From Flavobacteriales bacterium (GTDB lineage Bacteria > Bacteroidota > Bacteroidia > Flavobacteriales > BACL11), in contig JABICI010000105.1 of assembly GCA_018652335.1 (NCBI GenBank), forward strand, positions 1-34,216: 34,216 nucleotides of DNA. The letters are read 5' to 3'. Numbering within the stretch: the first letter of the stretch is position 1; each line of letters starts with the position of its first letter. The notes beneath the pieces are model-generated. The model worked only from the letters and a program-made list of their open reading frames with translations, was not told where the DNA came from and did not search any database. The translations under genes were made by a program, and so were the position numbers. Shown here in pieces: positions 29,662 to 33,957 of the stretch.

Positions 29662-30225
29662 TTATTTAATAAGTTTCATAAACTCAGATCGTGTTTTTTC
29701 ATCAGACATAAATAATCCTGAAAAAGCAGATGTTGTTGTTGAGGAATGTTGTTTTTGAACACCTCTCATTTGCATACATAAGTGTTGAGCTTCAATAACT
29801 ACAGCTACTCCTTTTGGATTTAGAGTGCCTTGTAGGCAATCCTTTATTTCATCAGTAAGCCTTTCTTGTACTTGAAGTCTTCTAGAAAAAACGTCAACGA
29901 TTCTAGGTATTTTACTTAAACCTACAATGTGTCCATCTGGAATATAGGCAATATGTGCTTTTCCAAAAAAAGGAAGCATATGATGTTCGCATAGAGAATA
30001 AAGCTCTATATCTTTAACTAAAACCATTTGACTATAACTTTCGGCAAACATTGCAGAAGTTAAGATTTCTGAAGGATTTTCTTTGTATCCATTTGTTAAG
30101 AAGCTCATTGATTTTGCTACTCTTTCAGGTGTTTTAATTAAACCTTCTCTTTGTGGATCTTCTCCAATCTCAGTAAGAACAGATTTAATATTTTTTGCCA
30201 AATCTATATTGTAATTATCACTCAT
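29662..30225 (-). CDS. folE: GTP cyclohydrolase I
   Basis: Opens GTP to dihydroneopterin triphosphate, the first step of folate synthesis. Zinc ligands are in [22 protein letters not shown] (Cys and His) and [10 protein letters not shown] (Cys); [18 protein letters not shown] is the typical N-terminal part. The frame can be extended to 30255, but that ATG lies inside the palindromic promoter (30243-30263), and the ATG at 30223-30225 (MSDNYN) fits the family (187 residues). A -7 box on the minus strand at 30244-30251 lies 18 nt upstream. Divergent from mqnB, upstream of fabD. Confidence 0.95.
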
Positions 30226-30242
30226 ATGTCTATAATTAGAGT

Positions 30243-30263
30243 GCAAATATACCATATATTTGC
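30243..30263. promoter_or_regulatory. Palindromic divergent promoter between folE and mqnB
   Basis: GCAAATATA-cca-TATATTTGC is a perfect 9-bp inverted repeat with a 3-nt spacer. Each arm holds an exact TAnnTTTG box, reading away from the other: minus-strand 30244-30251 for folE, plus-strand 30255-30262 for mqnB. The plus box ends 4 nt before the mqnB ATG, so mqnB may be leaderless. I see no -33 TTG for either. Confidence 0.55.
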
Positions 30264-30266
30264 AAA

Positions 30267-30845
30267 ATGAAAGTATTGATAGTTGTTGCTACTAATTTTG
30301 AAATTACTTCAGATATGTTAAAGGTTTACCCAGTATTAGTCACTGGAATAGGCATGGTAAACACATCAATAAATTTAACAAGAGAGCTTTCAAAAAATAG
30401 ATATGATTTGGTGATTAATATGGGAATCGCTGGCTCTTTTAAAGATTCTATTAATATTGGAGATGTTGTTGAGATAACTGAAGATAGTTTTTCTGAAATT
30501 GGTTTTGAGAATAGTAATCAATTTAATAAGTTCAGTGAATTTGATATTAAAACTAGTTTTACTGTGAATCCAAAATCATCTCTAAAAAGAGTTAAATCAA
30601 TAACAGTTAATACAGTTCATGGAAACGCCCAATCAATTTCTGAGATTGTAGAAAGAGAAAATACTGATATTGAAAGCATGGAAGGCGCGGCAGTATTTAA
30701 TGTTTGCGAAGATTTCAATACAAATTGTATCCAGATCAGATCTATTTCTAATAAAGTTGAAGCGAGAAATAAAGATAACTGGGATATAAAAACTGCAATT
30801 ATTAATCTAAATAATGAGGTTGAGAGAATTATTACTAATTTATGA
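30267..30845 (+). CDS. mqnB: Futalosine hydrolase
   Basis: Hydrolyses futalosine, a step of the alternative menaquinone pathway. A 192-residue member of the MTA/SAH nucleosidase superfamily: [18 protein letters not shown], then [20 protein letters not shown], then the catalytic region [14 protein letters not shown]. Its 4-nt ATGA overlap with mqnD confirms the pathway assignment. The ATG at 30267 is the first Met and fits the family start ([13 protein letters not shown]). Upstream -7 box is only 4 nt away (see promoter entry). Confidence 0.92.
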
Positions 30846-31645
30846 AGATTACTTTAGGAATATCACCTTGTCCAAATGATACGTTTATCTTTGATGCTTT
30901 AATTCATCGGAAAATTGATACTGAAGGGATAGAATTTGATGTTCATTTTGCTGATGTTGAACATCTTAATAATAATGCTATTACTGGAACGTTAGATGTT
31001 ACAAAACTATCTTTTAATGCTTTCTCCAAATGCACTAAATCGTATTTGTTATTAGACAGTGGGTCAGCACTAGGCAGGGGTTGCGGTCCATTGTTGATAA
31101 AGAAGCCATCTACATTATTAACAAATAAAAGTAGAATTGTAGTTCCAGGCTTTAGTACAACTGCTAATTTACTATTAACTATTCTTAAGCCTAACTATAC
31201 AAATAAATATGAAAATATATTTTCAGAAATTGAAAAGGATATTCTTTTAGAGAATGCTGACGCTGGATTAATTATTCATGAGAATAGATTTACTTTTAAA
31301 AATAAAGGTCTAGTTGAAGTTTATGATTTAGGAGAACTTTGGGAAATCGAAAATAAACTTCCAATTCCACTTGGTGGTATTGCGATTAGAAGAGATTTAC
31401 CGCATTATCTGCAAAAGAAAATTGAAAGAATTTTATTTAATTCGGTACGTTTTGCAATAGAGAATCCAAATTCTTCAAAAGAATTTATAAAATCCCATGC
31501 CCAAGAGTTAGAAGATAGTGTAATTGATGCACATATCAACTTATATGTTAATGATTATTCAATATCTTTAGCAGATGAAGGACGAAAAGCAGTTCGTCTA
31601 TTATTTCAAAAAGTTGGTGTTAATTCTGATAATATTTTTCTATAG
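30842..31645 (+). CDS. mqnD: 1,4-dihydroxy-6-naphthoate synthase
   Basis: MqnD converts cyclic de-hypoxanthinyl futalosine to 1,4-dihydroxy-6-naphthoate. 267 residues, periplasmic-binding-like fold without signal peptide. The family opening LGISPCPNDTFIFDALIHRKID is clear, as are DVTKLSFNAFSKC, GSALGRGCGPLLI, IHENRFTF and LGGIAIRRDLP. It overlaps mqnB (ATGA). mqnA and mqnC are not in the window; they would be elsewhere. Confidence 0.94.
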   Translation: MKITLGISPCPNDTFIFDALIHRKIDTEGIEFDVHFADVEHLNNNAITGTLDVTKLSFNAFSKCTKSYLLLDSGSALGRGCGPLLIKKPSTLLTNKSRIVVPGFSTTANLLLTILKPNYTNKYENIFSEIEKDILLENADAGLIIHENRFTFKNKGLVEVYDLGELWEIENKLPIPLGGIAIRRDLPHYLQKKIERILFNSVRFAIENPNSSKEFIKSHAQELEDSVIDAHINLYVNDYSISLADEGRKAVRLLFQKVGVNSDNIFL

Positions 31646-33934: not shown

Positions 33935-33957
33935 ATTAGTTAATTTTTAACTAATAT
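33933..33957. repeat. Perfect 11-bp inverted repeat at the GNAT start
   Basis: ATATTAGTTAA, three T, TTAACTAATAT. The left arm covers the first two bases of the GNAT start codon and the region just upstream. It could form an mRNA hairpin near the start or be an operator between the GNAT gene and the next gene. Being all but AT, chance formation cannot be excluded. Confidence 0.5.

Follow-up and report, generated by a model that had tools for sequence, protein, structure and literature searches.

Mirror-image -7 boxes between folE and mqnB enclose a spacer that has probably inverted repeatedly in a family of Flavobacteriales

The short region between the divergent genes folE and mqnB raises the question of why two biosynthetic genes should be separated by a perfect inverted repeat, and whether that symmetry serves a regulator, reflects two promoters placed back to back, or has some other history. 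In the 34,216-nt stretch of DNA analyzed here (the window, which is contig C104 in a genome of 143 contigs and 1.57 Mb whose closest relatives are mostly uncultured Flavobacteriales MAGs), positions 30242 to 30264 read TGCAAATATA CCA TATATTTGCA, with a left arm at 30242–30251, a right arm at 30255–30264, and the CCA spacer at 30252–30254. The arms are 10 bp each, 1 bp longer than the 9 bp given in a first-pass annotation that had otherwise correctly described a perfect repeat around a 3-nt spacer. Both arms fit TAnnTTTG, the -7 consensus of Bacteroidota sigma-A promoters, and the palindrome arises because the two boxes are the same word, TATATTTG, in opposite directions. The box in the left arm lies on the minus strand, from 30251 down to 30244, and points toward folE; the box in the right arm lies on the plus strand at 30255–30262 and points toward mqnB. 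Another inverted repeat with a 3-nt loop, this one with 11-bp arms, is present at window position 33943. As set out below, the locus is probably a compact divergent promoter whose spacer has been flipped recurrently by way of a hairpin, followed by the loss of 13 bp in the window's clade.

On the left, folE (GTP cyclohydrolase I; 29662–30225, minus strand, counted from its likely true start) scores above the cut-offs of TIGR00063 and NF006825 and is followed leftward by fabD. On the right, mqnB (futalosine hydrolase; 30267–30845, plus strand) scores above the TIGR03664 cut-off, and its end is overlapped by an mqnD-like menaquinone biosynthesis gene (30842–31645, plus strand; PF02621). A longer FolE reading frame that reaches 30255, and would thus start inside the palindrome, was rejected: its ATG exists only in the short spacer form carried by the window, is not in frame in all loci of that form and is not conserved, and would lie upstream of the gene's own promoter and predicted transcription start. 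In more distant relatives, the usual order is fabD-folE-queD facing mqnB, as in Mucilaginibacter and other Bacteroidota (L230–L287). Outside the window's family nearly all loci (80 loci compared) have queD, encoding a QueD-like protein (PF01242), to the left of mqnB, followed farther out by folE and fabD; a few loci depart from this, with one or none of the three genes found. Within the family, no queD match was found at the place left of mqnB, where folE adjoins the box; fabD does so instead in L025, L029, and L030. At L023 (G035), the folE beside mqnB matches over only about 44 residues, is followed by fabD, and looks like a truncated remnant next to an intact mirror promoter. L017 offers a single natural case in which folE is no longer the neighbor: the closest ORF on the left, at a distance of 131 bp, is unrelated, and the left box has become degraded while the spacer and right box remain intact. 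A record titled Chryseobacterium gleum (L208) is a MAG contig that matches the small-genome family and is likely mislabeled. Because different genomes have folE, fabD, or queD as the leftward partner, the pairing of folE with mqnB, and so of folate with menaquinone synthesis, looks like an inherited older gene order, and the same variation speaks against the earlier suggestion of an operator that links the two pathways.

The proposal of back-to-back promoters for folE and mqnB gains support from the relatives and from the spacing of boxes across genomes. For this comparison we used one genome per species and left out of the mqnB matches two partial second copies (G028:C1 and G004:C99), weak hits with E of about 1e-5 or worse, and a split hit in G114. 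Both boxes were recognized in 43 of the 53 related loci by a script whose rule also accepted a left box ending in A; the 10 loci outside this rule were left out of the symmetry count discussed below. As first described, the rightward box of the window ends 4 nt before the mqnB ATG (30262 and 30267, respectively). By the script's rule this gap is 4 nt in 45 of the 53 loci and 5 nt in 4, with the box absent in 4; in L051 and L053 the start was wrongly extrapolated, and inspection by eye places the boxes 4 and 5 nt before an ATG. Distances from TAnnTTTG to ATG in the window's family are bimodal, clustering sharply at exactly 4 nt and more broadly at 16 to 31 nt. With ORFs called mechanically, and starts therefore approximate, boxes at exactly 4 nt make up 10 of the 56 lying no more than 60 nt away in 246 kb sampled from the window's own genome and 35 of 183 in 800 kb of G010, compared with 3 of 62 (and 4 at 5 nt) in 400 kb of G110, a comparator from another family.

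In the portions of the Flavobacterium studies drawn on here, the -7 box spans -12 to -5 from the transcription start in F. psychrophilum (PMC9723704) and T-12 to G-5 in F. johnsoniae (PMC6847099), a position from which a box 4 nt before an ATG is predicted to yield a transcript that begins on the A. The predicted mqnB start is thus 30267 on the plus strand, the A of the ATG, on the basis of the 4-nt spacing and the family-wide peak, and the predicted folE start, 4 nt after its box by the same published spacing (PMC9723704, PMC6847099), is 30239 on the minus strand, which would leave a 14-nt leader before the ATG at 30225. The locus would then be a compact divergent promoter made of two back-to-back -7 boxes for the housekeeping sigma factor of Bacteroidota, with transcription from the left box giving folE a short leader and that from the right box giving mqnB none. 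A leaderless mqnB, raised as a possibility in the first-pass annotation, is likely and would not be unusual in this family, since TAnnTTTG boxes peak 4 nt before ORF starts there and the 4-nt gap recurs at most mqnB loci. Leaderless transcripts account for 5.5% of mapped mRNAs in F. psychrophilum, as stated in the part of that study consulted (PMC9723704). In these small genomes, where boxes at 4 nt are far commoner than at neighboring distances, they may represent about a fifth of detectable promoters, which for annotation purposes supports leaderless starts as a sizeable class. Neither side of the palindrome has a normal -33 box, as originally noted, and no TTTG is seen by eye at that distance. 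In two genomes of the window's family, none was visible upstream of the 52 and 67 boxes inspected, so its lack at this locus is the family norm and a -33 TTTG is not a useful membership criterion there; for F. johnsoniae, the corresponding passage of PMC6847099 describes the -33 element as weak and much less evident.

In most relatives the boxes are separated by 15 to 16 nt rather than the 3 nt of the window, and this segment occurs in two orientations. Among the 36 loci of the window's family, with states set by script, orientation A (CTACCTTTTCTTTTGG toward mqnB, and close variants) is found at 19, and orientation B, the exact reverse complement of A or a close 15-nt relative, at 6 (L018, L021, L023, L024, L029, and L030, from G042, G012, G035, G022, G024, and G015, respectively); 9 have the short CCA form and 2 have another spacer. 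The 16-nt A and B forms agree at 16 of 16 positions after reverse complementation (15 of 16 at three loci that carry a single substitution) and at 3 to 4 of 16 directly, between species whose mqnB genes are 65 to 73% identical at the nucleotide level (about 0.69–0.73 for the exact A/B reverse complements). The flanking genes keep their sides in A and B loci, indicating that only the middle segment has turned, and assembly error is unlikely because several assembly series lie behind both orientations. Across the 14 loci with 16-nt spacers, B being flipped before alignment, 14 of 16 spacer columns are invariant, compared with 0 of 25 fourfold columns of mqnB. The letters of the spacer thus look strongly selected and its direction seemingly irrelevant, as both boxes face outward whichever way it lies. 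Neither spacer was found without mismatch elsewhere in the 52 family genomes. A dispersed repeat or a regulon was considered and set aside, given that the exact spacer occurs at this locus only in these genomes; near matches with two to three mismatches are scattered. An A-rich tract at the Mucilaginibacter locus seems to resemble orientation B.

On a tree of FolE, MqnB, and MqnD, which are three linked genes, the fewest changes between A and B number three. The tree holds 36 loci of the window's family and 2 of another; 7 of its 38 rows have no folE, and some deep nodes are weak. Placing all B loci in a single clade is rejected (p-AU 0.004), and a single clade of the four g12 B rows gives p-AU 0.026, the constrained groups in both cases having been chosen from the spacer sequences. 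Given this tree, the comparison shows that the segment has flipped at least three times in the family, and a segment that lies between inverted repeats, occurs in both orientations, and changes orientation at least three times on a tree has the marks of a hairpin-associated minute inversion. The CCA form of the window equals B minus 13 bp by one deletion and cannot be derived by one deletion from A. This suggests that the window's clade descends from a B-like form and makes the CCA at 30252–30254 a probable remnant of the 15- to 16-nt segment conserved in most relatives. The conserved spacer is absent from nine loci including the window, a loss for which our best explanation does not account.

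How far could the locus be explained with less? Ordinary close divergent promoters with a chance palindrome and no notable history would suit the base composition: inverted repeats with arms of at least 10 bp and loops of 3 to 16 nt number 5 in the window versus 1 to 6 in 12 Markov simulations (2 versus 0 to 1 for 3-nt loops), so that the bare palindrome is not rare in this AT-rich DNA, and both boxes are common in divergent gene pairs (11 of 21 in the sample of the window's genome, 24 of 57 in G010). The exact words tell another story. The box-NNN-box pattern, with up to two mismatches allowed, occurs once in the window, exactly, versus 0.23 expected, and across the 52 family genomes the outward arrangement CAAATATA-N1-30-TATATTTG occurs at 80 sites versus 12 inward, totals summed by hand over sites that are not independent and in many cases orthologous; the reversed control of the outward arrangement, with 1 to 30 nt between, gave 2 sites. 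Degenerate TAnnTTTG boxes have no genome-wide outward excess in 800 kb of G010 (35 outward versus 34 inward), and the counts are 15 versus 9 in the 246-kb sample and 3 versus 8 in G110. The signal resides in the exact words and their conservation and not in a general surplus of mirror boxes. With the arrangement conserved over many genera, the 4-nt gap kept, and the spacer both conserved and inverted, we regard a history-free chance palindrome as highly improbable. A dyad operator for a regulator tying menaquinone synthesis to that of folate (or pterin) would account for the perfect arms of the window and the alike box words of 26 of the 43 two-box loci, and the strong conservation of the spacer leaves room for some protein to bind there. 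Symmetry between the arms is nevertheless broken in the other 17 of the 43, although each arm still matches the -7 consensus fully or almost so: in the right box the two unspecified letters of TAnnTTTG have changed, whereas the left box retains TA at those positions. Spacer length ranges from 3 to 25 nt among loci, and spacer plus right box occur without mismatch only here, so no regulon is visible. An operator is on this evidence unlikely. The first-pass annotation had looked to sister genomes with the genes still adjacent for conservation of the palindrome; the boxes are indeed kept there, but neither the perfect symmetry nor the 3-nt spacer persists.

The two spacer orientations invite two further explanations. 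Inverted repeats flanking a segment that lies in opposite directions in different species recall a phase-variable element moved by a site-specific recombinase, yet the segment is only 15 to 16 nt, and the invertible promoters known to us are all far longer. Inversion also leaves promoter direction unchanged, since the boxes face outward in the A, B, and short forms and flipping turns nothing off, and no mixture of orientations was seen inside one genome (G039 is short at both copies and G028 is A at both), which together make such an element very unlikely. Alternatively, the spacer may never have flipped, A and B having arisen separately by convergence in AT-rich DNA. Both are A/T-rich tracts, and among the B forms those of 15 nt match less exactly than those of 16 nt, but a match that is complete when reversed and reaches about 4 of 16 positions when not, together with the restriction of each mismatch-free spacer to this one locus, strongly disfavors convergence, to which we give hardly any credence.

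Hairpin-mediated micro-inversion is the likeliest cause of the flips. The boxes would serve as a hairpin-capable inverted repeat, and the segment between them would turn, most likely by strand or template switching at the hairpin during replication; in the window's clade, the flipped copy would then have lost 13 bp, leaving CCA. The shortness of the segment leads us to favor strand switching over the action of a recombinase. Folded as DNA, all three spacer forms (A, B, and short) give hairpins (z of -3.8 to -5.2), and the arms are alike in all 6 B and 9 short loci, with none of the 17 unlike-arm loci flipped, a distribution that fits a hairpin requirement and is confounded by ancestry. Alternatively, a flipped copy may have spread through recombination confined to this small region.

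No flips were seen, on reading by eye, at five further sets of orthologous mirror promoters in the family: the rsgA group (16 loci), M20 peptidase/metallo-hydrolase, AdoHcyase/PPTase, a lipoprotein pair, and a P-type ATPase. The AdoHcyase spacer, being almost its own reverse complement, is uninformative on this point. The rsgA mirror promoter has a conserved 15-nt spacer (L090–L092, L101, L105, L106, and L188–L196); its divergent partner varies by genus, being an ABC ATPase gene or a putative secreted-protein gene, and the boxes and spacer stay. One of the two rsgA neighbors was not found by the script in L100 and L189. A second mirror promoter, whose 24-nt spacer separates two small putative lipoprotein genes (L110, which is G000:C64, L109, and L114), has one gene 4 nt from its box and is common to genera g1 and g5.

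Recurrent inversion of a conserved segment between mirror boxes appears to be new and joins two known kinds of thing; a search of the open-access literature found no report of such inversions at bacterial promoters, which is a weak form of absence, and one on futalosine genes yielded nothing of apparent relevance. The locus ties together symmetric divergent promoters and hairpin-driven micro-inversions, which are usually studied apart. Mirror boxes supply the inverted repeats, and their outward direction makes the promoter tolerant of flips, so that flipped copies can persist under selection and be counted. A conserved element able to work either way also makes it possible to test cleanly what occupies the space between divergent promoters. 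More speculatively, and with doubt outweighing confidence, mirror -7 boxes may be a natural site of micro-inversion, with the spacer an orientation-blind cis element whose letters are selected and whose direction drifts freely through repeated strand-switch flips at the hairpin, perhaps with both orientations in one population.

Minute hairpin inversions of chloroplast noncoding DNA were reportedly described by Kelchner and Wendel in 1996. In the sections of a chloroplast study considered here, small inversions of 4 to 50 bp, likely helped by hairpins, are pervasive (PMC12371153); like our locus, they involve a short segment, probably between hairpin arms, in both orientations, whereas at our locus promoter boxes form the arms and the inverted segment shows strong conservation. 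Template switching inverts loops in rRNA hairpins, where, in the excerpted account, loops are typically 4 nt and some are 7 to 8 nt (PMC8794818). There too the loop is turned in place between perfect arms, but the segment described here is about 14 to 16 nt of promoter DNA outside both predicted transcripts. Compared with Bacteroidota sigma-A promoters in general, the locus has the same TAnnTTTG boxes at the same 4-nt distance from the predicted start and differs in having two boxes back to back as a perfect palindrome, with one gene predicted to be leaderless. Bidirectional promoters of E. coli likewise use near-symmetric DNA to drive divergent transcription; in the part of that work cited here, their starts are most often 18 bp apart, with 10 and 23 bp also seen, and a shared -10 element is one configuration (PMC12825309). 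The boxes of our locus are separate, 3 bp apart, with predicted starts 28 bp apart (41 bp with 16-nt spacers), and we do not file it as an E. coli-type bidirectional promoter, although it may work like one; at both, one bound polymerase would presumably block the other.
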